NCBI GenBank assembly: GCA_910575705.1
Contig: CAJTFG010000003.1
Coordinates: forward strand, 1 to 64,000
Reading direction: 5' to 3'
Source: Erysipelotrichales bacterium
GTDB taxonomy: Bacteria; Bacillota_I; Bacilli_A; Erysipelotrichales; Erysipelotrichaceae
DNA: 64,000 nucleotides
Positions 2,046 through 38,759 of the stretch are shown here, in pieces. Both the position numbers and the translations under genes were made by a program. The notes beneath the pieces were generated by a model. That model had not been told where the DNA came from, made no database searches, and saw nothing but the letters and a program-made list of their open reading frames with translations. How positions within the stretch are numbered: the stretch's first letter is position 1; each line of letters starts with the position of its first letter.

Positions 2046-4160
2046 TCATAGAAATAGCAATCGTGATGTGGCTGCCACAAAAGCACATACAATACAACCG
2101 ATCACAGTAGGAATGAGAATGGATAGTATCGTCCATTTCCAACTTCCCGTTTCTTTGCGTATCGTTAAACATGTAGTAGCACACGGCCAGTGGATCAATG
2201 AAAACAACATCGTACATACCGCCGTAACCCACGTCCATCCATTTGCCAGCAGCAATTCTTTCAATTCCATCAGATTCTCAAACTCTATCATATAGCCGTT
2301 TGACATATATGCCATGATCATGATCGGAACGACGATTTCATTTGCCGGAAAACCGAGGATGAAGGCCAGAAGGATCACGCCATCTAATCCTAACAGTTGG
2401 GCAAACGGATCCAGAAAAGAGGAAATATGTGCAAGCAATGTTACATCCTGAATCTGTACATTTGCAAGCAACCAAATAAAGGCCCCGGCCGGAACAGCAA
2501 CGCTGATCGCTCTTCCTAAAACAAATAAAGTACGATCGAAGACAGAACGAACGATCACTTTGCCAAACTGCGGCTTTCGATATGGCGGAAGTTCCAACGT
2601 AAAAGAGGAAGGTACGCCTTTTAATAAAGTCCTTGACAACAAAGAAGATACTCGAAAAGTCAGCCAAATCCCCAACAGGATGACCGAGGTCAATATAAGT
2701 GTAGAAACGATCCCATTCCATGGAGCCAGAAACATACCCGTAAAAAACATGCTGATGATCGCAATCAAGGTAGGAAACCGCCCATTGCATGGCACAAAGT
2801 TATTTGTTAAAATAGCCAACAAACGCTCTCGGGGACTGTCGATGATGCGACAGCCGCTGACACCTACCGCGTTGCATCCAAATCCCATACACATCGTCAA
2901 AGCTTGCTTGCCGCAGGCTTTGGCTTTTTGAAAATAACCATCCAAATTAAATGCGATGCGCGGCAAATAGCCAAAATCTTCCAACAATGTGAACAAAGGA
3001 AAGAAAATCGCCATCGGCGGAAGCATTACCGCTACTACCCATCCTGTTGTCTTATATACACCTAATACCAATATATCATGGAGCCAATCACTTACTTTGA
3101 TCGTATGCAGAAAATTACTAAGCACTCCTTCCATCGTTCCAAAAGCATCACTGAGGATCTGACTGGGAATATTAGCGCCGGATATCGTAATCCAGAATAT
3201 TACGGATAACAATGCGATCATGATCAATACACCATATATTTTATGAGTTACGATGCGATCAATTTTCAAATCTCGTTCATAATAGTGCGCATTGTTAAAC
3301 ATAATACATTTGTCTACGATATCTTTGGCTTTTTTTGATAGTTCCTTAACGATAAGCTCTTCATAATGTTCGTATATTCCCTGTTCTTCCAATTCCTCGA
3401 TCGCCTCGCCAACGGCGATTCTCACCTTTTCCCGATCACCGTTCAACTGATGGTAATAGTCTTCTTTATCCACCTGCGGATCTAGAAGCTTCAATGCATA
3501 AAAGCGTTTGTTAATAGATTCATCACACAAAGCTGCTTCGATCTTTTTAAGCGCCGCCTCTAAATGCGGCTCGTACGTAACGATCTCATGTGTATGAAAA
3601 CGCTGAATACGTACTGTATGAGCGATCGCTTGTTTTAATTCTTCAAAACCAATATGATTTCGAGCGCTCATCTTTACCACATCTACACCAAGCAGTTTTT
3701 CCAGCTTTTTCTCATCGATATGAATCTCTTTTCGTTCTGCCTCATCCATAAGATTTAAACATAACACGACACGATTGGTGATTTCCATCGTCTGTAAAAC
3801 AAGGTTCATATTTCGCTCTAAACATGTAGCGTCACATACGACCAAGCATACATCGCATTTTTCAAAACATATATAATTTCTGGTAACCTCTTCTTCCTTA
3901 CTATGTGCTAAAAGCGAATATGTCCCCGGCAGATCAATCATCTCATTGTTTTTATTTTGAAATACATATGTTCCACTCGCTAAAGAAACCGTCTTCCCCG
4001 GCCAATTTCCCGTATGCTGCTTCATTCCTGTCAATGTGTTAAATACAGTACTTTTCCCCACGTTAGGATTGCCGATCAAAGCAACCGTATAGCCCTCTTC
4101 TTCATTTTTATAAAGCTCATTGATTTCCTCATTTACCTCTATGAGTTTTGAAAACAGCAT
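2046..4160 (-). CDS. feoB: ferrous iron transporter FeoB
   Basis: FeoB carries Fe(II) across the cytoplasmic membrane and is the main iron uptake route in anaerobes. The 704-residue protein has an N-terminal G domain with G1 GNPNVGKST (residues 30-38) and G3 DLPG (76-79), a helical spacer, and a membrane core of paired gate repeats that starts near residue 300. Length and order are normal for the family. The start follows GGAGG at good spacing inside the 3' end of feoA. feoA stops only three bases upstream, so the two are co-transcribed and probably translationally coupled. Confidence 0.97.
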   Translation of the reverse strand: MLFSKLIEVNEEINELYKNEEEGYTVALIGNPNVGKSTVFNTLTGMKQHTGNWPGKTVSLASGTYVFQNKNNEMIDLPGTYSLLAHSKEEEVTRNYICFEKCDVCLVVCDATCLERNMNLVLQTMEITNRVVLCLNLMDEAERKEIHIDEKKLEKLLGVDVVKMSARNHIGFEELKQAIAHTVRIQRFHTHEIVTYEPHLEAALKKIEAALCDESINKRFYALKLLDPQVDKEDYYHQLNGDREKVRIAVGEAIEELEEQGIYEHYEELIVKELSKKAKDIVDKCIMFNNAHYYERDLKIDRIVTHKIYGVLIMIALLSVIFWITISGANIPSQILSDAFGTMEGVLSNFLHTIKVSDWLHDILVLGVYKTTGWVVAVMLPPMAIFFPLFTLLEDFGYLPRIAFNLDGYFQKAKACGKQALTMCMGFGCNAVGVSGCRIIDSPRERLLAILTNNFVPCNGRFPTLIAIISMFFTGMFLAPWNGIVSTLILTSVILLGIWLTFRVSSLLSRTLLKGVPSSFTLELPPYRKPQFGKVIVRSVFDRTLFVLGRAISVAVPAGAFIWLLANVQIQDVTLLAHISSFLDPFAQLLGLDGVILLAFILGFPANEIVVPIMIMAYMSNGYMIEFENLMELKELLLANGWTWVTAVCTMLFSLIHWPCATTCLTIRKETGSWKWTILSILIPTVIGCIVCAFVAATSRLLFL

Positions 4161-4163
4161 AGA

Positions 4164-4394
4164 TTACCTCCTTTCCTCCACTTCGATCAAACTGCTCTCT
4201 GAACTTCTTAAGGCTATCAGCGCACCCTTTATCATATATGCACGCATATCATGCGTAGCATTTTCTAACATAGGACAGATAGACGAACCTTTCAGTATCC
4301 CTAAATCCAATAAACGTCGCTTTATCGTTCCCGGATTGTGAACTTCTTGAATGATCCCTTCCTGTGCAATCGGAAGATCATGTAATGTTTTCAT
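4164..4394 (-). CDS. feoA: FeoA, small SH3-like partner of FeoB
   Basis: This 76-residue basic protein has the FeoA core: a conserved glycine-rich turn, then a LLDLGILKGS-like segment typical of the SH3-like fold. FeoA is needed for full FeoB activity, probably by binding its cytoplasmic domain. It is the first gene of the feoAB operon and has a strong GGAGG ribosome binding site. The 150 bases upstream are shared with the divergent peptidase gene. I could not identify a convincing Fur box there. Confidence 0.93.
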   Translation of the reverse strand: MKTLHDLPIAQEGIIQEVHNPGTIKRRLLDLGILKGSSICPMLENATHDMRAYMIKGALIALRSSESSLIEVEERR

Positions 4395-4543
4395 ACGATA
4401 CCTCCTATGCCTATTTTATCCGATATAAACAAAGGAGTATAAGACGAATACCTATAGTCATTAAAAACAAATGCTTTTATTTTCTATAACCCATACTCAT
4501 CTTAAAGTTTTTCATAGAGTGTTATGAAAGGAGGTAGATTCCC

Positions 4544-4969
4544 TTGACAAAAATCATCGTATATGATGTATATACACAGGCTCTTCAAGTGTTTCAGAGG
4601 AATGAAAACGATCCAATGCCGTATTCTTATGGACGAACGATGCTCGTTCGTGAGTTCAGAGGTTCCTCACGTTCTTCTGTTTTATGGACAACCAATGCAG
4701 CGATGGAAGCTTGGAACGCTACCCGGCGTACGTATGGCAATCCCATTCCTTTCCGCTACGCTTTTAAACGCATTTGGGAAGGCGGTCACGGCCGTCAGTC
4801 ACAGCATTATGCCGGTTTAGCTTTTGATGTGGGACAAGCACTCACACAGGCACAGCGCAATCGCATATGGCAGGTCGCAAACAATCTAGGAGTATGGGTA
4901 TACGTGGAACCGCAAAGTATGACACCGACATGGGATAGTGTAAAATTAAGGGAAAATCATTCTACTTAA
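4544..4969 (+). pseudogene. 5' part of an interrupted M15-type peptidoglycan peptidase gene
   Basis: The TTG start follows AGGAGG by about 8 bases. The first 130 residues are the front of a zinc D,D-carboxypeptidase or endopeptidase-like M15 domain. The signature SQHYAGLAFD supplies zinc ligands H88 and D95, and E122 is a candidate general base. From codon 131 the frame runs into foreign sequence and ends after 11 unrelated residues. The missing rest, with the third zinc ligand (WVHFD) and a peptidoglycan-binding domain, is found in frame at 11514-11810. As it stands this piece lacks a complete zinc site and is probably inactive. No signal peptide is visible, as in phage-type lysins. Confidence 0.85.
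4928..4934 (+). other. left junction repeat (attL core)
   Basis: ACATGGG at codons 129-131 of the peptidase gene is repeated exactly at 11514-11520. Joining the two flanks through one copy restores the peptidase reading frame, which marks this as the crossover region of the integrated element. Confidence 0.75.
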
Positions 4970-4975
4970 AATGAA

Positions 4976-5012
4976 AAAAGTAGAGAATTTTGGCTCTCTA
5001 CTAGCAATTTTT
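4976..5012 (+). terminator. hairpin just inside the left end of the element
   Basis: GTAGAG and CTCTAC pair across a 10-base loop, and an AATTTTT tail follows shortly after. It would stop transcription coming from the truncated peptidase gene. Confidence 0.4.
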
Positions 5013-5029
5013 GTATGATTTAGGGTGTT

Positions 5030-5176
5030 TTATATAATTCTATTACCACTTACTTGGATATAGATTAACTCATTTTTCTTCTTAACTACAAAATCAATTT
5101 CCTTTCTGTATAGTTTATCTACATAAACTTCATATCCTCTATGACAAAGTTTAAGATAAACTATGCTTTCATACAC
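5030..5176 (-). pseudogene. remnant of an AAA ATPase C-terminus (DUF4143-like)
   Basis: On the minus strand an open stretch of about 47 codons ends at 5030. It reads as the last part of a DUF4143-type ATPase: an [17 protein letters not shown] segment followed by [10 protein letters not shown] and a final YIQVS. This matches the PD-(D/E)xK-like end of that family. A stop codon lies directly upstream and no start or ATPase core is present. It is a leftover of a decayed cargo gene. The family match is by eye. Confidence 0.55.
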
Positions 5177-5248
5177 TCACTAACAAACTTTTATATATCA
5201 TGAAATAATCGTTATCATTACATAAAACAATAATAAAGAATTAAATCT

Positions 5249-5935
5249 TTAAAAATCTACATAAATATTATATTTATAAAATTCAGATTTCATCTTTTCA
5301 TAATCTTCTTTTGATAGTTGCTTTAAATTAAGTTCGTCCATGCCCTCTACTACACCTGCAGCACATGTATATAAGGAGAAGCTAGTGATATGTAATCCCA
5401 TTTTCTCGACTGCTAAAGGGAGTTGCTCAAATCCTTTATCAACTGTTAGTATATTCTTATTCATTTGATAAGCTGTTTCATAAATTGCTCGCATCATTCT
5501 CCTGGTTCTTCTTTCCGATATCTCGTATGCATTTTTTCTAACATAACAGATATAAGCATAAAAGTAACGATCGTCAACAAAGTCAGGACTTTCTTGATGG
5601 CATTCTTTACATAACAAAAAATAATTTGATGGTATATTTTCTCCATCTAACATTCTAGATTTAATATGCGCTTTTTGTAAATAGCGAACTTCAGGAAAAT
5701 TCCAAATTCTCATACAGCTTTTAGTATTTATTAATCTATCATACTTTGGATTATCATATATTTTATGATTGAACATGCCACAAGCCCAACACTCAGGTTC
5801 GCCAGGGTCAGTGATCACTAGTTCAGCACCTTCTTCATAAAAATCAATTATTTTAAATTCTTTTGATATGTATTTGCCTATCCAATATTCTGCAATTTGT
5901 TTTCTTGAAGGTGAATGATTCTTATTATTCCCCAT
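5249..5935 (-). CDS. HNH-endonuclease-like protein, element cargo
   Basis: This 228-residue soluble protein has a CxxC pair (C49, C52) and then an HNH-like core: AHIKS with H90, N104, and a second CxxCH (C109, C112, H113). That is the usual arrangement of a zinc-stabilised HNH nuclease fold. The C-terminal half has no recognised domain. A strong AAGGAG site precedes the ATG. It stands alone on a recombinase element beside other defence-like genes, so an anti-phage or DNA-cleaving role is plausible, but this is inference. No methyltransferase partner is present. Confidence 0.65.
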   Translation of the reverse strand: MGNNKNHSPSRKQIAEYWIGKYISKEFKIIDFYEEGAELVITDPGEPECWACGMFNHKIYDNPKYDRLINTKSCMRIWNFPEVRYLQKAHIKSRMLDGENIPSNYFLLCKECHQESPDFVDDRYFYAYICYVRKNAYEISERRTRRMMRAIYETAYQMNKNILTVDKGFEQLPLAVEKMGLHITSFSLYTCAAGVVEGMDELNLKQLSKEDYEKMKSEFYKYNIYVDF

Positions 5936-6404
5936 AAAAATCTCCTTTCATTAATCATAAAACAGGAAGGACTTGCATCTTTCCAAACGCTATGTTCTAC
6001 ATTTTTTCGTTAAGAATCATATTTTTAGAATTTCTCCAGTTGCTTTTTTCTTTCGATAACATTAGCAATTCTTAGTTTATTTATCAAACAATTGCTTGAG
6101 TTCTTTTTAAATATGTCTTTTACTTCCTATTCAAATCCGTTCAGTGCGTCAGAAACAGAACAGATTTCTATTAGTTATTCAAAGCTTTTCTTGTACTACC
6201 TGTTTTATATTCAATAATTCCTAAGGAAATACAGTCCAGATGAATAAAACGAATGATTTTTGTAACCATATGTGTTTCTTTGTAACAGAAAAATTCTAAT
6301 ACTTCAATATTTTTTTATTTAAAGCTTTATTAGAAAATTAATCAACTAATAACCTAACACCTATTATTCCATTATTAGTTAAATAAAAGAAACCTATATA
6401 GATG
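5936..6404. other. gene-free stretch with coding remnants
   Basis: No intact gene is seen over these 469 bases. On the minus strand about 6183-6300 holds an open frame of some 38 codons ending in GIIEYKTGSTRKALNN, and about 6030-6110 a further piece ending NVIERKKQLEKF. Both look like tails of decayed genes, but I cannot assign a family. Confidence 0.4.
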
Positions 6405-7790
6405 TTATTTAAATAAATCATCAATCGTTAACAGAATTGCACCATCTATTTCTGCTTGTCGTTTCACTGGTTCTGTATATCCTGATTTACTTACAAAATA
6501 TAAATGTTTCTCTTTGATATTAGGAAATGCTTTCGTTGCATTTACAAGATCTGTATATTCTTCAAGAGGCATAGGACTTGATGTGAATTTACACTCCATA
6601 AAAATGGCCTTTTTACCACTTCGATCGATAGCCAAAACATCAACATCATCTTGTGCTTTGATACTTGGATTGTTACCCCACCATTTTCCTATAGAAAAAG
6701 GAATAAAAGGAAGTTTTCTTTTCTTTGCTTGATGAATTAAATATTCTTTACATACACCTTCAAATACATCTCCCATAAGATTTGAAATATCATTCATAAT
6801 TTCTTCAGCAGCATCTTTTGCTCCTAACATTGCATAATATGCATTATTCGTAAATTCATATCGAAACCAAAATCTTAAGAAATTATCTTTTATTACATAA
6901 ATTGATTTTTTAGATCTGCTATTTTCACCACTTGGAACTCTTTTCTCAATCAAACGTAATGTTTGAAGTGTTGTTAAATATTTAGAAACTTTTGTTTGAT
7001 CCTCATGTATATAATCTGCAATTTCGATAATTCTGTTTCTTCCATTCGCAATCGCAGAAAGTATGGAATTATAGGTATTTGTTTCTCGTAATTCTGCCTT
7101 CAATAAATTTTCAGGTTCTTCATATAAATAAGAACCATTTCGAATAATTTTAGATGCTATATTTTCTTCAACAGATTTATTAGCATCAAAAGCTTCTAAA
7201 TATCTTGGAACACCACCTAAAATCCCATAAGCAATTAACTTATCTTCGTTACTGTAGTTAGGGAAGAAATTACTACTTTCTAAATAATCAAATGAAGTTA
7301 TTTCTAATGTTGCTGTTTGACGATCATGTAATGGACTTTTTCTTCCCATGATTTCATTTTCCATGACACTAATTGAAGAACCACAAAGAACTAAAAAGAT
7401 ATTTTTATTCTTCCAACTATGATCAATAGCATGTTGCAGAAGTGATTTCACAGAAGGATTTTCTTCAATGATATAGGGAAATTCATCAATAATAAATGCA
7501 GTTCTATCTTGTGTTTTATTGCCAATATAGGAAAAAGCATCTTCCCAACTTTTAAATGAAGAAATGAACTGTTGCTCAAAATGAAGTTGTATTGTTTTTG
7601 AAAAATCTTCTAAATTTAATGCATCATTTTTTTCACGTGCAGGAAAAAAGATAGCGTTTGTATGTTTTGAAAATTCTTGAAGTAATGTTGTTTTTCCTAC
7701 TCTTCTTCGTCCATACATAACTAAAAATTCAAATTTTTTACTTTCATATAATTCATTTAAATAGTTTAATTCTTCTATTCTTCCTAGCAT
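6405..7790 (-). CDS. P-loop ATPase with DUF234 nuclease-like C-terminus
   Basis: The 461-residue protein begins with an archaeal-type ATPase domain: Walker A GRRRVGKTTL (residues 27-36), Walker B FIIDEFPY, and a sensor-like LCGSS. A winged-helix region follows, then a DUF234-type end in which DVDVLAID and IFMECKF give the D...ExK pattern of a PD-(D/E)xK nuclease fold. Such proteins are widespread in Bacillota, archaea and mobile elements, and their role is not settled. A clean AGGAGG precedes the start. On this element it may be a defence or addiction-type gene. A second, decayed ATPase of a related kind lies at the left end of the element. Confidence 0.8.
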   Translation of the reverse strand: MLGRIEELNYLNELYESKKFEFLVMYGRRRVGKTTLLQEFSKHTNAIFFPAREKNDALNLEDFSKTIQLHFEQQFISSFKSWEDAFSYIGNKTQDRTAFIIDEFPYIIEENPSVKSLLQHAIDHSWKNKNIFLVLCGSSISVMENEIMGRKSPLHDRQTATLEITSFDYLESSNFFPNYSNEDKLIAYGILGGVPRYLEAFDANKSVEENIASKIIRNGSYLYEEPENLLKAELRETNTYNSILSAIANGRNRIIEIADYIHEDQTKVSKYLTTLQTLRLIEKRVPSGENSRSKKSIYVIKDNFLRFWFRYEFTNNAYYAMLGAKDAAEEIMNDISNLMGDVFEGVCKEYLIHQAKKRKLPFIPFSIGKWWGNNPSIKAQDDVDVLAIDRSGKKAIFMECKFTSSPMPLEEYTDLVNATKAFPNIKEKHLYFVSKSGYTEPVKRQAEIDGAILLTIDDLFK

Positions 7791-7910
7791 AGTATTCCTC
7801 CTATTTTATTTATATACTCATAAGTATTATACTCTAAAGTATAAAAAATATCAAACCATGATTTTTAATACCACTACTTGACATTGTCTACAACTTAAAT
7901 GATGAGAAAT

Positions 7911-9755
7911 TTAGATATTTTGATAAATTGCTTTCTTATTTTTATGAGGTCTTTTTATCACACCTTCCGTTTCTAATTGTCTGATTTGTTTCATAAAGAT
8001 TCCTTTATAGGAATACGTATATCCTTGATTGATTAAGGCTTGATGAACACTTTTTAAAGAAAACTTTTGATACATAGCTTGCTTTTCAATTTCTTCTATA
8101 ATCGCTTTACGGTATATTTCTTGTTCTTCATCAACAAGTATAACATTCGCATCAATATCATCTGAAAAACATCCCTTGAAGTGAAATACGATTTGATGAT
8201 CGTGTACAACAATTTTGCGAAATAATATTTCTAGTTCCTGCTTTGTATAATCTTGCTTGGTAATCATTTCATCTATGATATCAAGAGCAGATGTAAAGCA
8301 TTCTTCATGAAAAGAGTAACTCTCTAATTCCTGTTTCAACAACTCGATATTCTCCTCATGCTCTTTCATCATCTTCACTTTTTCATCAATCAAGGATTGA
8401 TAAGATTCTTGAATGATCTCATAGTTTTCAAGCAGTGACATACTCTCTCGCATCTTATTTTCAATCAACTGTTTGATTTCTAACTTTAACTGTGTAATCT
8501 TTGTTTTATATTGAGTGATTTTTTTTAAAATTCCTTTTATTTCAACCTCTTTGGAATCTGCATGAATCTGTTGTTCCTCTAAAAAATTCTTATATACATC
8601 TCTACACCGTTTTAAAAATATCGTTACAGCTTTTTTTAGTTGTTGGTCTGTTACTGACTTTGAACTACAGACTGTTTTACCTTGTTTTTGATAGGTTGAA
8701 CAGTAATAATGGGTATTTCCTTCTCGTATATCTTTTGTAGTCTTAGAAGGCTTTAAAAGACTATTACAGTCAGCACAATATAATAATCCATGGAATATAT
8801 TTTCATAGATTTTTCTTTTTCTCTTAGATCGTACTTTCTTACTTTCCAACTTTTCTTGACAGATACGAAATAAGTTTTCATCAATAATGGCTTCATGATG
8901 ATGTTCAAATACTTTCCATTTCTCTCTAGGAAGCTTTTGATATTTTCCTCTAATCTTAACGCATTCTCCTTTATGAAGAATTAATGTTCCTAGATATGTT
9001 TCATTCTTTAAAATTCTGCGAATACAGGAATCATTCCAACAATCCGTATATTTATTTTTATCATCAATTCCGTTCTTTAATCGATATTCATGTAAGGAAC
9101 GAGAAGGAGTAAGAATGTTTTCTCTTGTTAGAGTACGAGCAATTTGTAAGATACCATACCCATCCACATACATTTGAAAGATACGCTTCACAACACTAGC
9201 ATTGTTTGGATCAATGACGAGTTCTGCACCTTTCTTTTGTACTTTATGATATCCAAACGGTGGGGTTGTCATCCATTCTCCATCTTCTTGTTTCATGTGA
9301 ATAACATTCTTTACTTTCTTGCTTGCCTCTTTCACATACAATTCGTTATGCCAAGTTTTGATTCCAATCGTTGAATCATTATCTTGAAAATTGGAATATC
9401 CATCATCTAACGCAATGACTTCACATCCATGATCCCTTGCATCTTCCATAAAGAGTAATGCACGAGCATTGTGTCTTCCTAAACGAGACATATCTTTTAT
9501 TAGTAATCGTTTCACTTTTCCAGAAGCAATATCTTTATTTAAACGATCAAAGTTAGGTCGTTCAAATGAATATCCACTTTCTCCATCATCAATATAGCGT
9601 TCTGTAATCGTATAATGATTTTCTTTCGCAAAACGAGTCAGCATCTTATCTTGATTTTCAATGGATACGGAAAGACCTTTATTTCGATCATCTCTTGATA
9701 ATCTTAAATAAAGAACAATATTGCGATCTTGAGTCTCTATCGTAAAATCGATCAT
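7911..9755 (-). CDS. large serine recombinase (integrase of the element)
   Basis: This 614-residue protein has the full architecture of a large serine integrase. A resolvase catalytic domain carries the nucleophile S20 in YLRLSRDD, with later RLGR-type catalytic arginines. A recombinase domain covers about residues 170-300. A zinc ribbon of paired cysteines (CADC, then CSTY and CSS) lies near 325-375, followed by a long coiled coil near 400-500 that in this family controls integration against excision. The family recombines short non-identical att sites without host factors. It is the obvious agent for the insertion flanked by ACATGGG. No separate directionality factor is recognised, although the 76-residue protein upstream is a candidate. 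Confidence 0.93.
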   Translation of the reverse strand: MIDFTIETQDRNIVLYLRLSRDDRNKGLSVSIENQDKMLTRFAKENHYTITERYIDDGESGYSFERPNFDRLNKDIASGKVKRLLIKDMSRLGRHNARALLFMEDARDHGCEVIALDDGYSNFQDNDSTIGIKTWHNELYVKEASKKVKNVIHMKQEDGEWMTTPPFGYHKVQKKGAELVIDPNNASVVKRIFQMYVDGYGILQIARTLTRENILTPSRSLHEYRLKNGIDDKNKYTDCWNDSCIRRILKNETYLGTLILHKGECVKIRGKYQKLPREKWKVFEHHHEAIIDENLFRICQEKLESKKVRSKRKRKIYENIFHGLLYCADCNSLLKPSKTTKDIREGNTHYYCSTYQKQGKTVCSSKSVTDQQLKKAVTIFLKRCRDVYKNFLEEQQIHADSKEVEIKGILKKITQYKTKITQLKLEIKQLIENKMRESMSLLENYEIIQESYQSLIDEKVKMMKEHEENIELLKQELESYSFHEECFTSALDIIDEMITKQDYTKQELEILFRKIVVHDHQIVFHFKGCFSDDIDANVILVDEEQEIYRKAIIEEIEKQAMYQKFSLKSVHQALINQGYTYSYKGIFMKQIRQLETEGVIKRPHKNKKAIYQNI

Positions 9756-9818
9756 AATAATGATACATACCTTTCTGATGCCACTATTATGTCGTGCTTT
9801 TTTTGATTTGACAGTGCC

Positions 9819-10049
9819 CTAATGCCCATATTTTTTATTCACCCTACAAGCAATCAGTTCTTTTAATAGCACTTTTATATTGATTGTTCCATCAATAAAC
9901 TTCACCTCATATGTCTTCCTGTTATTTACATTTGAAGTATTTGATTTTGGATTCTTTGATTGCATGGATCCATCTCCTATACTATCATATGAATCCATTT
10001 GACTTTGTTTTCTCTTTCTAAGAGAATCCGTTACATTCAGAGTTTTCAT
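9819..10049 (-). CDS. small hypothetical protein upstream of the recombinase
   Basis: This 76-residue polar protein has a serine- and asparagine-rich first half and a KTYEVKFIDGTINIKVLLKEL segment that could form a strand-helix unit. I do not recognise a family. It lies 63 bases upstream of the recombinase in the same orientation, so it may be a recombination directionality factor or regulator. Its start lacks a close ribosome binding site. GGAGG lies about 20 bases away, before a three-codon frame (ATG ATT ATG TAA) that ends next to this start, so coupled translation is possible. Confidence 0.5.
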   Translation of the reverse strand: MKTLNVTDSLRKRKQSQMDSYDSIGDGSMQSKNPKSNTSNVNNRKTYEVKFIDGTINIKVLLKELIACRVNKKYGH

Positions 10050-10123
10050 TTGATTACATAATCATAAAATTCCTCCATTCTTCTTTGATATTTTATCTCA
10101 AATTCCAATCTTTTTACTCCATC

Positions 10124-10156
10124 AAAAAAAGCTGAACTGATTGGAACAGCTTTTCA
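10124..10156 (-). terminator. terminator behind the FRG-domain gene
   Basis: AAAAGCTG and CAGCTTTT arms (10127-10134 and 10147-10154) form a hairpin that is followed by seven T on the minus strand, just downstream of the FRG gene. Confidence 0.6.
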
Positions 10157-10215
10157 TATTCTTTATTAATTTATTGAGGTTATGATTAATTTCTCTAACT
10201 TTTTCTCCAAATTTA

Positions 10216-11100
10216 TTATTTATTAATTTTAATTTGGTTCAAAGCTCCTTTTTTCTTTAAATATTTTCTTTCCTTATCCTCTCCAGACTTTTCTTTAACA
10301 ACCTTATTAACAGCATTAATACCATTCATAAAATTATCAGTTATCAAATCAAGTGCTTTATCTGTTTTACTTAAAATATTTAATTCTTTAATAAATTTGC
10401 ATGTTTCTTCTTCTAAAGAGGGATATATACTACTTTTATTAATTCCTAATAAATCTAATTCTTTTTTTAGTATATTAATAGAATCTTTGTCAATACTTAG
10501 CTCTTCGACTTCAAAAGCTTCAGATTTAGTAATATCGAAATCCTCGAAGAATAGAATAAAATCTCCTTTTTGATTTTTTATTCTATCAGAAATACTACTC
10601 CCATTTACCATGACTATTTTACTATTAATTATGTTTTTTTCATAAAAAGAATTCAATTCTTTATTCACAAAATAACTCGCTTTGCAATTCTTAGCTATTA
10701 TTAAATACACAACTGGTTCATCAGTTTCTTTAAAATTTTCTAATGCAAAGTATAAGGATACTAAAGGATTTGAAGTGACATCTAAAACCCTTGTTGGAAA
10801 ACCATAGTGTTGTAAAATATTGATTATACTGATTAAATCTTCATAAATAATATTTACAAAGTAATCATGATTTTTTTCAACAAACTTATAAATTTGGTTT
10901 ATTTCTTCATCTATATTGTTATAAAAAGGAAGGTCTGAATGCTTTTCTTTTTCTCTATAAAAGGAAGGAATTAATTTCCAGTTTTTATTGAATCCATTTC
11001 TTTGACCTCTATAAAAAATCTGTTCAGAAGGAAAATTAATCTTTCGTTCTTCGATTATTTCAATAAAGTTGGAAATATTTTTAATCTTATTGTTTATCAT
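10216..11100 (-). CDS. FRG-domain protein, element cargo
   Basis: The 294-residue protein contains an FRG domain over roughly residues 25-150. It shows an N-terminal FYRGQ motif, a PSFYR segment and the hallmark LQHYGFPTRVLDVTSNP. The domain is named for its F-R-G residues and is common in proteins of mobile elements and defence islands. Its biochemical activity is not established to my knowledge. The lysine-rich C-terminal 130 residues are not recognised. The start overlaps the end of the preceding small gene by 14 bases and has no ribosome site of its own, so the two are translationally coupled, as in toxin-antitoxin-like pairs. Confidence 0.8.
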   Translation of the reverse strand: MINNKIKNISNFIEIIEERKINFPSEQIFYRGQRNGFNKNWKLIPSFYREKEKHSDLPFYNNIDEEINQIYKFVEKNHDYFVNIIYEDLISIINILQHYGFPTRVLDVTSNPLVSLYFALENFKETDEPVVYLIIAKNCKASYFVNKELNSFYEKNIINSKIVMVNGSSISDRIKNQKGDFILFFEDFDITKSEAFEVEELSIDKDSINILKKELDLLGINKSSIYPSLEEETCKFIKELNILSKTDKALDLITDNFMNGINAVNKVVKEKSGEDKERKYLKKKGALNQIKINK

Positions 11101-11356
11101 TTTGAATACTTGTCATTAATAACTGTTTGAAATCTTCGTTAGTCATCCCTAATTCACGCATCAAATCAATTGCCTCTAATGGAGAAAGGTTAGATTCATT
11201 ACTTAATTGTTGAACATATTCAATTAAATCAACAAAACCATTCCACAATTCGATATATTGATCGTCAATCTTTATTTTTTCATACTTATTATAAATTCCT
11301 ACAATTTTTTCTTCAAAATTTTCTTCTTTTTTTCTAGTGTTTATTTTATCTAACAT
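11087..11356 (-). CDS. small partner protein of the FRG gene
   Basis: This 89-residue, charged, mostly helical protein of unknown family is preceded by a strong AGGAGG. It is the first gene of a two-gene unit with the FRG-domain gene, which it overlaps by 14 bases. Size, order and coupling fit an antitoxin or chaperone for the FRG protein, but there is no direct sequence evidence for that function. Confidence 0.65.
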   Translation of the reverse strand: MLDKINTRKKEENFEEKIVGIYNKYEKIKIDDQYIELWNGFVDLIEYVQQLSNESNLSPLEAIDLMRELGMTNEDFKQLLMTSIQNDKQ

Positions 11357-11513
11357 GTATAAAGCCTCCTAATTAGTCAGAAATAGTATATATCTTTAGG
11401 CCTTTAAAAATCAATATCATTTAATTTTTTAATAAAAAATCTTTTAGTTTCTATCTGTTTGATATATTTTTATAATAATTTATCTAGAGGCCCATTTCCT
11501 TAACTCCACTCCA

Positions 11514-11520
11514 ACATGGG
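11514..11520 (+). other. right junction repeat (attR core)
   Basis: This is the second copy of ACATGGG. To its right the peptidase frame resumes as TGG-GTC-CAC-TTC-GAC (WVHFD). To its left lies element sequence. Confidence 0.75.
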
Positions 11521-11810
11521 TCCACTTCGACAAACGCTATGGCAGACCAGCCTGCAGCGCCGGATTCCCTACACTGCGCAACGGCAGCCGCGGTGTTTAT
11601 GTACTTGTCCTTCAAGATGCATTAAATGCCCTCGGTTATTCCACAAGAACATTGGACGGTGCCTTCGGTCAAAATACACGCTCCGCACTGATCGCTTATC
11701 AGCGCAACAACGGATTAAGCGCAGATGGCATATGCGGATGTGCCACTTGGACGAGAATTGTCAGTGAGGTAGTCGGAATCGGTAGAACACCGACGGTAAT
11801 CGATCCTTAA
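11514..11810 (+). pseudogene. 3' part of the interrupted peptidase gene with peptidoglycan-binding domain
   Basis: Read in the frame that continues codon 129 of the left fragment, this piece encodes TWVHFDKRYG followed by a peptidoglycan-binding type 1 domain. That domain has LQDALNALGY, DGAFGQNTRSAL and YQRNNGLSADG, and the frame ends at TAA 11808-11810. H132 of the rejoined protein would be the third zinc ligand. The rejoined protein is 226 residues: M15 domain about 1-145, binding domain about 148-212. The fragment has no start codon or ribosome site of its own in this frame, so it is silent while the element is in place. Confidence 0.85.
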
Positions 11811-11851
11811 AAAAACCTCCTGCCTGCTTTTCCAGCAGACAGGAAGTTTTT
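11811..11851 (+). terminator. terminator of the interrupted peptidase gene
   Basis: An 18-bp stem (11811-11828 with 11834-11851, two wobble pairs) and a final T5 directly follow the stop codon. Confidence 0.8.
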
Positions 11852-11866
11852 ACATATCATACACCA

Positions 11867-11906
11867 TTGACAAAAGCAATCAATTAAAGTTATACTAATA
11901 TAACTT
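11867..11906 (+). promoter_or_regulatory. promoter with overlapping inverted repeat, ZIP transporter gene
   Basis: The -35 box TTGACA (11867-11872), an 18-base spacer and the -10 box TATACT (11891-11896) are clear. The -10 box is overlapped by a perfect inverted repeat AAGTTATA-CTAA-TATAACTT (11887-11906). This is a likely operator for a repressor, plausibly metal-responsive given the gene behind it. Confidence 0.7.
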
Positions 11907-11922
11907 ATTAGGAGATGATACT

Positions 11923-12714
11923 ATGAAAGTACTATTATGGGCGGCATTAGGTACCGGTTTTACCTTTTTGATGACATCCTGCGGCGCTGCACTCGTATAT
12001 ATATTTAAAGGAAAAACAAGCGAAAACATTCAACGCATTTTCTTAGGTTTCGCCGCGGGCATCATGATCGCTGCATCGATCTGGTCTTTGCTGATACCCG
12101 CCATCACACAAGCAGAAGACATGGGAATGATCCCCTGGATCCCGGCAGCAGGAGGATTTACTCTTGGCGGAATATGTTTGCTGGCTCTGGATAATCTACT
12201 TCCCCATCTGCATATAGGCAGTCAGCAAGCCGAAGGCATGACCAGCTGCTGGAAACGTACTACACTGCTCATTTCTTCGGTTACGCTTCATAATATTCCG
12301 GAAGGAATGGCCGTTGGACTGATGTTTGCTATGGCGGCCCAGCAATCCAGCGATCCTGCCTTCTCCACTGCTGCCTTTGCTCTCGCCTTAGGCATCGGCA
12401 TACAAAACTTTCCAGAAGGCGCTGCTATATCATTGCCGCTTCATCAAGAGGGCATGAGCGTTCATAAATCCTTCTTATGCGGAAGCCTGTCCGGTATCGT
12501 AGAACCGATATTCGGCATTTTATGCGTGTTAGCCGCTGGGAGCATTCAGCCTTTCATGCCATGGCTTTTATCTTTTGCCGCAGGCGCTATGATCTATGTC
12601 GTCGTAGAAGAACTTATACCGGAAGCTCATCTCGGTGAGCACTCTCATATCGGAACCGCAGGCATCATGGCTGGCTTTCTCATCATGATGATCTTAGATA
12701 TCGCCTTGGGATAA
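11923..12714 (+). CDS. ZIP-family metal transporter
   Basis: This 263-residue membrane protein of about eight helices has the two metal-site motifs of ZIP carriers: HNIPEG (residues 123-128) in TM4 and QNFPEG (161-166) in TM5. Bacterial relatives (ZupT, GufA-like) import zinc and other divalent metals. A histidine-poor loop separates the first and second halves. The start is preceded by TAGGAG. It is a single gene with its own promoter and putative operator. It converges with the next minus-strand gene and their 3' ends overlap by 21 bases. Confidence 0.9.
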   Translation: MKVLLWAALGTGFTFLMTSCGAALVYIFKGKTSENIQRIFLGFAAGIMIAASIWSLLIPAITQAEDMGMIPWIPAAGGFTLGGICLLALDNLLPHLHIGSQQAEGMTSCWKRTTLLISSVTLHNIPEGMAVGLMFAMAAQQSSDPAFSTAAFALALGIGIQNFPEGAAISLPLHQEGMSVHKSFLCGSLSGIVEPIFGILCVLAAGSIQPFMPWLLSFAAGAMIYVVVEELIPEAHLGEHSHIGTAGIMAGFLIMMILDIALG

Positions 12715-35418: not shown

Positions 35419-35453
35419 AAACAGAACGGCATAACCAATCTGCCGTTCTGTTA
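35419..35453 (-). terminator. terminator of the surface-protein operon
   Basis: AACAGAACGGCA and TGCCGTTCTGTT form a 12-bp stem with a 9-base loop just past the stop at 35466. The T tract is short. Confidence 0.65.
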
Positions 35454-35465
35454 AAAAGTTTATAA

Positions 35466-37028
35466 CTATCGATTATCAAAATCATCGTGAAAACGGAAAG
35501 GCTGCGTCAAAGAATCATCAACGTTTCCTCCAGCTCCATGATGCGTCTGTGCAGGGCGCCCGGATGACGACATATGCTGTCGATGATAGGTTGGCTGCTC
35601 TTCTTTTCTCTGCGTGATAGGTTTTGCATCTGCTTCCTTTTTTACCTGCAATTTATCGTTCTTCGGCATTTCCTTTTTTACCGTTTTTTTATTATTTTTA
35701 CTTTGATGACGACTGCGAAGCCATAAAATCAGGAATATGACAGCCAGTCCGCCAAAAGTTCCCGCTCCTATCATCAGATAGAGATTCTGTGTTAAAATAT
35801 CTTCATATGCTTCCTGAGTGACAGCTGCTGCACCTGAATAAGGCTGCAAGGTATTGGAATTCTTTTCATACTGGTAAAATACCTTTTCACCTTTCTCGTT
35901 CATCAGATAAACAAGACTGTAATCAGAAAAAGCCTCATTTTCAAATCTCCACCCTGGCATTTTCTGTCCGTCAATTTCCACTTCTCCAAATACCATGCCT
36001 TTTCTTACCTGCATATCTTCCGGTATATCGATAATAGCAAGGTTATTTCCTAAAAGGGCAATCGGCTTATAAACAGAGATGATGCGATCTCCTTCATAGA
36101 TATAAAAATTCTTTTCGCTTTTCTCGTCAATCAAATAAACAAGCGTTATATTGCTTACACTATTCTTCCATGCCGGAATTTCTTGTCCGCTGTAGTTCAA
36201 CGTAGTTTTTTCAAACCCATAAGGAGAGCTTACAGAATCCACATTGGTAATAACTCCATAGTCTTTTCCGTTTACCTTCATAAATGCGGTTGGTTTCTCA
36301 TCTACATACGCATTGATAACGTATGTTTTTTCACTGCCGTCTTCAGCAGTGACAACGACTGTCAGCTTATTATCACCCGGTTTCACACTCTTTTCACCTG
36401 TACCGGAAACGTTAGCCTTGCTGTCATTTGCCGTGGCTTCTACCGTAAGAGAGGTCGTATCCGCAGATAACACCAACTTATACTCTGTCACTGCACTGTC
36501 AAATACAGGATCCAGCGTTCCTCTTGACACCGTCAAAGAGGATAATGTATTATCCGAAGATTTTGGATCGGCAGTTTCGTTGCTCGGATCATAAACATTT
36601 CCTCCGCTATTTCCGGGATTTCCTACATTATTTGAAGAATTTCCGCCACCTGACGAACTAGGACGAGGAATGACATTAACAGTTGCACTAGTAGATATAT
36701 TTTGATCTAATCCTGTATCATAATCGGCAACAAGTCCATTAATCGATACTGTCAATTTACCAACGGCATTAGCCTTTACCGTATAAGACTTAGAACTATT
36801 ATCAAACCAATCATAATCACTAGCAGCACCGCTGACAGTAATAGAGCCTGCAGCACCACTGACACTCACCGTAAAAGTAACGCTATCGCCAACATAAGCA
36901 GTACTAGCATTAGCCCAAACAGACGCGGAAAATTGTGCATGTACAGGTTGAATACATTGTAAAAACATACATAGTCCTAATACACCACTACTAATCCATA
37001 TGAAAAACTTATGCATAAATTTGCTCAT
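35466..37028 (-). CDS. membrane-anchored surface protein with beta-sandwich domains
   Basis: The 520-residue protein begins with a signal peptide (cleavage likely after VHA near residue 31). Next come an Ig- or cohesin-like beta-sandwich of about 90 residues, a Ser/Gly/Asn linker, and a cadherin-like beta-sandwich (SSLTVSRGTLDPVFDSAVTEY, about residues 163-245). Two related beta units follow, then a transmembrane helix (about 417-437) and a long charged cytoplasmic tail of about 80 residues. It lies 12 bases downstream of a dockerin-bearing glucosaminidase gene. It may anchor that enzyme, which is inference. GGAG precedes the ATG by 7 bases. Confidence 0.8.
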   Translation of the reverse strand: MSKFMHKFFIWISSGVLGLCMFLQCIQPVHAQFSASVWANASTAYVGDSVTFTVSVSGAAGSITVSGAASDYDWFDNSSKSYTVKANAVGKLTVSINGLVADYDTGLDQNISTSATVNVIPRPSSSGGGNSSNNVGNPGNSGGNVYDPSNETADPKSSDNTLSSLTVSRGTLDPVFDSAVTEYKLVLSADTTSLTVEATANDSKANVSGTGEKSVKPGDNKLTVVVTAEDGSEKTYVINAYVDEKPTAFMKVNGKDYGVITNVDSVSSPYGFEKTTLNYSGQEIPAWKNSVSNITLVYLIDEKSEKNFYIYEGDRIISVYKPIALLGNNLAIIDIPEDMQVRKGMVFGEVEIDGQKMPGWRFENEAFSDYSLVYLMNEKGEKVFYQYEKNSNTLQPYSGAAAVTQEAYEDILTQNLYLMIGAGTFGGLAVIFLILWLRSRHQSKNNKKTVKKEMPKNDKLQVKKEADAKPITQRKEEQPTYHRQHMSSSGRPAQTHHGAGGNVDDSLTQPFRFHDDFDNR

Positions 37029-37040
37029 AAGATCACTCCT

Positions 37041-38759
37041 TTATTTTCCCATAATAATATTTTTAACTTTTACATAATCTGCTGGAGTAATCTTGCCATC
37101 TCCATTTAAATCCGCAGCAATTAAAGACGCACCACTTAATTTGCTAGAACCCATAATATGATTCTTTATCCTTACATAATCTGCTGGAGTAATCTTGCCG
37201 TCACCATTCACATCGCCTTTTTTATACCCTTCCTCAGGAACACGCTCCTCATTGGCTATTTTTACATAAGCACCACTGATATATCCGTAATCTGCGTTAA
37301 AATTATAATTGCCTACATCTTGAATAATAGCTGTTCTCTTATCATTCAATGGAGCGTCGGACTGAATCTTATACCATGTCGTGTTGCCGTTAACACTGGT
37401 TCCCTGCACTTCATCGAGGATTAATATCGGAACATTCCCCGGTGTATTCGTCGGATAAAACGCAGCGGAAGACGTATTAGGCTCCGCTCTTACCATAACG
37501 GCATCCGCATCTACGATACCGATCTTATAACGTCCGTAATCCTTACCGCCCGTAGCGCGGTCTACCGCATAGGCGATCGCAGCCATTTTCTCACCCCAAT
37601 ACGGGTCTGACGCATAACGTACATTAAATCCGTTTTGCTTATCGCCAAAATGAGGACCGTTATAATTCCCAAATGCATCCTTCGGATCCATATAATTGAT
37701 CGATACAAAATATTCCGCATGCGCTCTTACACAGTCCGCAGGCGTTTTATACAGCGTAGAGGCATCCGGATCAGAATCATATGCCTTATGTCCGAACAGA
37801 TTATTTTTCTGTTGTGCCATATTGGAATTGCCCCATGCACTCTCATTTGCCGCCAGACTGTAATTAAGCAGAGCATTGGCGCCGAACGTATTTTGCGCAT
37901 CGATAAAAGCAGATCCCAAACCGATCATCTTTGATGAGCTGTTATTTGCCGTATCTCTTGTCGTTGTATCAAATTCAGCAGCACTGATGCTCGTCTTTGT
38001 ACGCTGTGACAGATATTGATAATAGTTATAATAAGGATTGTTAGGGTTGATCGAATTCTTTCTCGTGTTGTTTTTATAATCAGCAATCATAGACGCATAG
38101 GTCAGATAAAAATAATGACCGTCATAACTGTAATAAACCGTATTGTTCTGCATATAAGACTGCTTAGGACCAAAGTCCAAAGAAGCTGCATATGTATTTC
38201 TTGAAAGATCTGTCGTAATATAGTGCTTAATCCTTCCTTGCTCTACACGATAGAAATTCACGGATTTCACTTCACTGACATCATCGTAATTGAGAACTTC
38301 TACTTCAGAAGGAGAGACAAGCCCGATCACACCGCTTTGCATAAAACGAACTTTCCCGTTTACCATTCCCAAATAGGCAGCATCCGCTCCCGAACAGCCG
38401 TTGGTATATCCCGCACGTCCCGTCGTTTCTTCCGTATAAGACGTCGTATAATTACATGCCTTGATTTTGAAATTCACAACGCCGTTAGTCACATCGCGCG
38501 GCATGCTATAAGGAGAAATACCACCGATCCCTCGCAGCAGCGGATTCAGTAAAGTGTCCTGCGTACGATGACCGTCTTCCACATAAACCGTATCGATCGA
38601 TCCATCCATATTTACCGTATGAAATTCAAATTCTTCTTCTGTCGGCAGTTCTTCTATTTCTTCATCGGCATTGGATGACGCATAAACATTGAACGGCAAT
38701 ACGAAAAGCGACATCATGATATAGGATAAAACAAATATATAACGATAACTTTTCTTCAT
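37041..38759 (-). CDS. secreted glucosaminidase with SH3-like and dockerin domains
   Basis: This 572-residue exported protein has a signal peptide (residues 1-27, ending VYA) and an N-terminal domain of about 170 residues of unknown fold. A GH73-type N-acetylglucosaminidase domain follows, with a likely catalytic glutamate in ANESAWGNS near residue 300 and NNLFGHKAYD after it. An SH3b-like region (about 410-500) precedes a C-terminal type I dockerin. The dockerin has two calcium-loop repeats, each built on DxNGDGKITPADYVxxKN (about 508-572). Dockerins normally plug into cohesins. The enzyme would cut peptidoglycan glycan strands at the surface. Confidence 0.9.
   Translation of the reverse strand: MKKSYRYIFVLSYIMMSLFVLPFNVYASSNADEEIEELPTEEEFEFHTVNMDGSIDTVYVEDGHRTQDTLLNPLLRGIGGISPYSMPRDVTNGVVNFKIKACNYTTSYTEETTGRAGYTNGCSGADAAYLGMVNGKVRFMQSGVIGLVSPSEVEVLNYDDVSEVKSVNFYRVEQGRIKHYITTDLSRNTYAASLDFGPKQSYMQNNTVYYSYDGHYFYLTYASMIADYKNNTRKNSINPNNPYYNYYQYLSQRTKTSISAAEFDTTTRDTANNSSSKMIGLGSAFIDAQNTFGANALLNYSLAANESAWGNSNMAQQKNNLFGHKAYDSDPDASTLYKTPADCVRAHAEYFVSINYMDPKDAFGNYNGPHFGDKQNGFNVRYASDPYWGEKMAAIAYAVDRATGGKDYGRYKIGIVDADAVMVRAEPNTSSAAFYPTNTPGNVPILILDEVQGTSVNGNTTWYKIQSDAPLNDKRTAIIQDVGNYNFNADYGYISGAYVKIANEERVPEEGYKKGDVNGDGKITPADYVRIKNHIMGSSKLSGASLIAADLNGDGKITPADYVKVKNIIMGK

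Follow-up and report, generated by a model that had tools for sequence, protein, structure and literature searches.

The window analysed here (the whole stretch of 64,000 nt at the beginning of contig CAJTFG010000003.1 of an Erysipelotrichales bacterium) contains two genes, A and B, which lie 12 nt apart on the minus strand in a common reading frame (Table 1). Gene A begins with a signal peptide and is, by its sequence, a PF01832 glucosaminidase with predicted activity, the catalytic glutamate of the NES motif (E306) being nearly invariant in the alignment of glucosaminidase relatives. Its C-terminal domain exhibits two canonical EF loops (DVNGDGKITPAD and DLNGDGKITPAD) in near-identical repeats, and the AlphaFold2 (AF2) model of this domain superimposes on the Clostridium thermocellum dockerins 8x39_A and 2ccl_B at 0.8 A (Z 13, VIA). 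Both sequence and predicted fold thus mark it as a true type I dockerin, as had been proposed for the end of this enzyme, with putative calcium loading of the two loops.

Table 1. Features of genes A and B and of the adjoining intergenic DNA (positions in the window)
Feature	Position	Strand	Description
Gene A	38759-37041	-	572 aa; secreted glucosaminidase; SH3-like region; type I dockerin at the C-terminus
Glucosaminidase catalytic domain, gene A	37566..37913	-	aa 283-398; Pfam PF01832, 2e-15
SH3-like region, gene A	37260..37499	-	aa 421-500; weak PF08239 match, E 0.1
Type I dockerin, gene A	37053..37220	-	aa 514-569; PF00404, 7.6e-16; two EF-hand loops
AGGAG motif, resembling a ribosome-binding site	37036..37040	-	directly 3' of the gene A stop
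Gene B	37028-35466	-	520 aa; membrane-anchored protein, candidate receptor
Signal peptide, gene B	36936..37028	-	approx. aa 1-31; predicted from sequence
First domain (FD), gene B	36669..36935	-	aa 32-120; sandwich of Ig-like type; candidate domain for dockerin binding
Cadherin-like beta-sandwich domain, gene B	36306..36545	-	aa 162-241; PF12733, 1.6e-10
Membrane-proximal domain, gene B	35835..36296	-	approx. 155 aa; conserved; alignment A3
Transmembrane helix, gene B	35718..35774	-	approx. aa 419-437; from hydropathy and sequence
Cytoplasmic tail, gene B	35469..35717	-	83 aa; basic at its start
Terminator-like hairpin between B and ftsA	35420..35452	-	-18.8 kcal/mol, z -5.5

Both open reading frames were confirmed at the positions given beforehand. 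The anatomy originally predicted for gene B, i.e., a signal peptide and a transmembrane anchor with a long cytoplasmic tail, was recovered, the length of the tail varying among related anchors from 4 to more than 150 aa. No Pfam family scored above the cut-off for FD itself, behind which a low-complexity linker precedes the cadherin-like domain. The membrane-proximal domain, for which no Pfam match above the cut-off was obtained, is the most widely conserved part of gene B; it represents an unnamed domain family and is also found in small-genome Bacilli (family f11).

Concerning the remainder of the host genome (1.85 Mb in 11 contigs), the dockerin of gene A is the only one detected in a genome-wide Pfam search, and the Pfam cohesin family PF00963 finds no match anywhere in the genome, even at E<=10. 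The multi-cohesin scaffoldin and the many dockerin enzymes that characterize a cellulosome are thus not found in these searches, in agreement with the original prediction that the pair is not part of such a complex. A second glucosaminidase (G000:C1; L268:1222-2817), 44% identical to gene A, possesses an N-terminal transmembrane helix, which looks uncleaved, and no dockerin, whereas a search with the membrane-proximal domain revealed no second copy of gene B in the genome; the genome therefore encodes one directly membrane-anchored copy of the enzyme and one that would need B. Judged from sequence, the neighbourhood of the dockerin gene and B is not a chance arrangement, since the genome contains a single dockerin and no Pfam cohesin and since the same pair recurs in dozens of genomes.

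This recurrence was followed in both directions. The GTDB contigs were searched with the enzyme alignment, and the neighbours of the best 80 glucosaminidase relatives were read: the anchor gene directly follows every dockerin-bearing glucosaminidase among them except one (L093), the gene of which ends 128 nt before the end of its contig, whereas the many glucosaminidases without dockerin have an anchor-like gene nearby in a single case (Sellimonas, L121). In the converse search, the membrane-proximal domain of the anchors (alignment A3) was used and the gene upstream of each anchor was then read; where this gene was readable, it carried a dockerin in 70 of the 71 anchors with an FD. The remaining anchor is again that of Sellimonas L121, the genome of which has its dockerins elsewhere. 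Obvious duplicates had been removed from the 70 dockerin-anchor loci, which are to be counted as loci and not as independent evolutionary events. Half of them carry a glucosaminidase as cargo, the other half GH25 muramidases, Amidase_2 amidases, MBL-fold hydrolases, or SH3 proteins of unknown catalysis. Three anchors (L265, L266, and L262) start at the cadherin-like domain without an FD; none of them has a dockerin gene upstream, and no dockerin was found in the genomes of L265 and L266, such that FD and dockerin are lost together. The pair, with a short FD, even occurs in Vescimonas, a member of the Clostridia.

Some of these loci show peculiarities of their own. In four of them (L009, L027, L238, and L245), the dockerin is borne by an MBL-fold hydrolase, not an obvious wall hydrolase, and the same type of anchor adjoins. 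Two Breznakia loci (L081 and L235, genome G578) possess near-identical anchors with 100% identical FDs, of which the first follows a glucosaminidase and the other an amidase, i.e., the socket is constant and the cargo differs. The dockerin cargo of four loci of small-genome Bacilli (L217, L220, L222, and L228) contains SH3_3 and sometimes cadherin-like domains, with no recognised catalytic domain. Furthermore, two loci (L068 and L070) combine another kind of dockerin enzyme with a subsequent transmembrane protein, the first domain of which matches Pfam Cohesin and which has no cadherin-like domain; this protein represents a further type of membrane anchor with a single cohesin.

In several relatives, the slot of FD is occupied by a longer domain, which gives a Pfam Cohesin match in 13 of 19 cases; the profile of these longer domains matches cohesins in the PDB (best match 3l8q, 2.7e-9), including the NagJ cohesin structures, so that true cohesins stand in this slot. 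Concerning the short FDs (17 tested, including that of gene B), Pfam Cohesin is not among the families listed, a weak similarity to Big_3_5 is observed, and comparison with PDB sequences yields chance matches only and no solved cohesin. The profile of the short FDs nevertheless aligns with that of the cohesins at the orthologous position with an hhalign probability of 96.4% over 101 columns, as compared with at most 0.3% for column shuffles, 14.7% for reversed columns, and 0.4% for the cadherin-like domain taken from these proteins; the short FDs differ mainly in their middle part, which is reduced at the place where cohesins carry their YD..L segment. At the level of sequence profiles, FD is thus homologous to genuine cohesins. 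The AF2 model of the FD of gene B is a confident (pLDDT 93-98) Ig-like sandwich of eight strands, whereas the cohesin jelly roll has nine; the structural neighbours listed by Foldseek and VIA are Ig-like domains, e.g., the MG domain of alpha-2-macroglobulin (Z 9.6) and complement C3, and cohesins are not among the listed matches, an absence that is no proof of a different fold. The first domain had been described beforehand as Ig/cohesin-like: its cohesin position and the profile match uphold this description, whereas its smaller, Ig-like sandwich and its failure in the Pfam cohesin test do not. FD is probably a reduced cohesin; by sequence it cannot be classed as a Pfam cohesin, though the pair would work in the manner of cohesin and dockerin.

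A second line of evidence is provided by the exchange of the two domains. Over 32 glucosaminidase pairs, with the distances of the enzyme and of the rest of the anchor partialled out, the distances of dockerin and FD exhibit a partial correlation of 0.62 (reached in none of 500 permutations), the corresponding values being 0.16 for dockerin and rest of anchor and -0.02 for dockerin and enzyme. Replacements of both domains at once are seen within genera: in L237/L005, enzyme and rest of anchor are 98% and 93% identical, dockerin and FD 48% and 42%; in L006/L011 the respective values are 93% and 86%, and 45% and 32%, and in L215/L240 88% and 87%, and 40% and 33%. On the DNA level, identity falls in these swaps from around 0.85-0.9 to 0.3-0.5 over around 550 bp and then recovers, the block of low identity spanning the dockerin, the signal peptide of the anchor, and FD. 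As dockerin and FD adjoin on the DNA, a single recombination could move both without any binding between them, and the joint swaps support binding without proving it; however, breakpoints at the domain edges, together with the joint losses, make binding a simpler reading than linkage alone. Dockerin motif and FD class are only loosely correlated; a strict rule connecting the two was abandoned, seven cohesin-type FDs being paired with DY-type dockerins.

The common reading frame of the two genes made it possible to model a single chain of dockerin, signal peptide, and FD, together with identically arranged homologues. AF2 modelled this chain with a pLDDT of 90 and a pTM of 0.74, low confidence being confined to the linker, whereas a control of similar size (FD, linker, and cadherin-like domain) reached the same pLDDT but a pTM of 0.47; the linkers of the two chains differ in nature, that of the dockerin-FD chain including the signal peptide. 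Were the two domains not positioned against one another, a pTM as high as 0.74 would hardly be attained; as an indirect sign of contact, this value suggests that the model puts the dockerin against FD. To this extent, the interaction that the original prediction had postulated is in keeping with the modelling, with the first domain as a putative Ig-like partner. Readthrough of the stop codon between A and B as a biological process was rejected, since the gap between the genes in relatives frequently has a length not divisible by three; the joined chain served the modelling only.

Taken together, we consider A and B to constitute a membrane docking system with one cargo and one receptor, in which the dockerin binds FD and holds a wall hydrolase near the membrane (probability about 0.84), which corresponds to the minimal, non-cellulosomal pair of cohesin-dockerin type initially suggested from the window. 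In the proposed mechanism, the glucosaminidase, having neither membrane nor wall anchor of its own, would be secreted, and its two-loop dockerin, probably loaded with calcium, would bind FD, the outermost domain of the single-pass membrane protein B, which would act as its dedicated receptor. Bound in this way, the hydrolase would stay close to the membrane, at the place where nascent glycan strands appear. FD would be a shortened or replaced cohesin, and in relatives the same anchor would serve other wall hydrolases, dockerin and FD being exchanged as one specificity cassette. FD is taken as the receptor of the dockerin because of the pairing in 70 of 71 loci, the missing dockerin partners of FD-less anchors, the cohesin replacements, and the joint swaps.

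The original prediction had further placed the pair at the division site. The gene order is prkC-rsgA-rpe-thiN-rpmB-A-B-ftsA-ftsZ, such that the pair lies directly upstream of ftsAZ, and the same order is found in several Erysipelotrichaceae loci (L082, L087, L088, L095, and L097 of Longicatena), whereas in Breznakia, Merdibacter, Massilimicrobiota, and Beduini the pair is located away from ftsAZ. The link to ftsAZ is weak, as B and ftsA are divided by a strong terminator-like hairpin and the position is common to only part of the relatives; neither a shared transcription unit nor a linkage conserved throughout the family was found. A pair dedicated to the division site and acting with FtsA and FtsZ, which would be an addition to the docking reading and not an alternative to it, is favoured by the position here and in the relatives named, whereas the hairpin, the other locations, and the variable tail length speak against it; we regard it as unlikely, and beyond position a role in division, though possible, finds no support.

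Concerning the docking itself, FD might also be an ordinary Ig-like surface domain, the two genes adjoining by virtue of a common role in the cell wall and the dockerin binding something else or nothing. The lacking Pfam cohesin match and the resemblance of the model to generic Ig-like domains do count against docking, and the weak similarity to Big_3_5 points in the same direction; however, the presence of FD tracks that of the dockerin, cohesins occupy the same slot in relatives, this genome contains no other cohesin, and the joint swaps occur between conserved flanks, all of which makes an ordinary Ig-like domain very improbable. That the dockerin instead binds the cadherin-like or the membrane-proximal domain, with FD in another role, is hardly tenable: conservation within B is highest in these two domains, but anchors that keep them without FD have no dockerin partner, and dockerin distances track FD and not the rest of the anchor.

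Pairs of cohesin and dockerin are familiar chiefly for holding together complexes that degrade fibre. The docking pair proposed here shares with the cellulosome (e.g., type I of C. thermocellum) the dockerin fold, a receptor domain built as a beta-sandwich, and, as predicted from sequence and model, an enzyme held by a non-covalent plug. Unlike cellulosomes, however, this genome has one receptor, one cargo, and one dockerin, a membrane helix replaces the scaffoldin, the cargo consists of wall hydrolases and not of carbohydrases, and FD, with around 90 aa, falls outside the Pfam cohesin family. Cohesins outside cellulosomes are also known from the NagJ type of C. perfringens, the structures of which are matched by the classical FDs of relatives; there, cohesin and dockerin are situated on carbohydrate-active enzymes and are not known from a dedicated membrane receptor. 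In its effect, i.e., a membrane partner for a glucosaminidase, the A-B pair might by analogy be compared with SagB-SpdC of Staphylococcus aureus, which to our knowledge possesses neither a dockerin nor an FD. SpdC, which belongs to the CAAX protease family and is an integral membrane protein, contacts SagB directly, and it binds and regulates this glucosaminidase, which trims new glycan strands (reviewed in PMC12272431). Gut Bacillota possess another cohesin-dockerin assembly, the Limousia mucinolysome, in which one of the cohesin proteins is anchored to the wall; it comprises multi-cohesin scaffoldins, many mucin enzymes, and sortase anchoring and, unlike the A-B pair, no wall hydrolase cargo in the consulted parts of its description (PMC12997984).

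A description of such a pair of dockerin hydrolase and membrane receptor was not found in the open-access papers searched. Its recurrence with different wall enzymes and the joint exchange of plug and socket suggest that this manner of attaching such enzymes to the cell surface is widespread and has so far been overlooked. It seems somewhat more probable than not that FD, as a compact domain for dockerin binding, lies outside the known cohesin family and is borne by a membrane receptor reserved for peptidoglycan hydrolases, that the specificity of this receptor has diversified by exchange of the cassette of around 550 bp with dockerin and receptor domain, and that the system is widespread among the Bacilli, the Erysipelotrichales included, and reaches the Clostridia. 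If docking holds true, common gut bacteria would use plug and socket to position their wall hydrolases at the membrane, each enzyme having a receptor of its own, and the solitary dockerins borne by wall enzymes where a genome lacks cellulosomes would be accounted for; FD would provide a small new socket for protein engineering, and the naturally swapped pairs could be used to study changes in binding specificity. In current annotation, both proteins are named by domain only, e.g., in Vescimonas as "dockerin type I domain-containing protein" and "cadherin-like beta sandwich domain-containing protein". Elsewhere in the window, positions 4001-12000 exhibit a G+C content of 0.31, as compared with around 0.41 in the surrounding sequence, and this part, with open reading frames at 5249-11100, is possibly acquired DNA.
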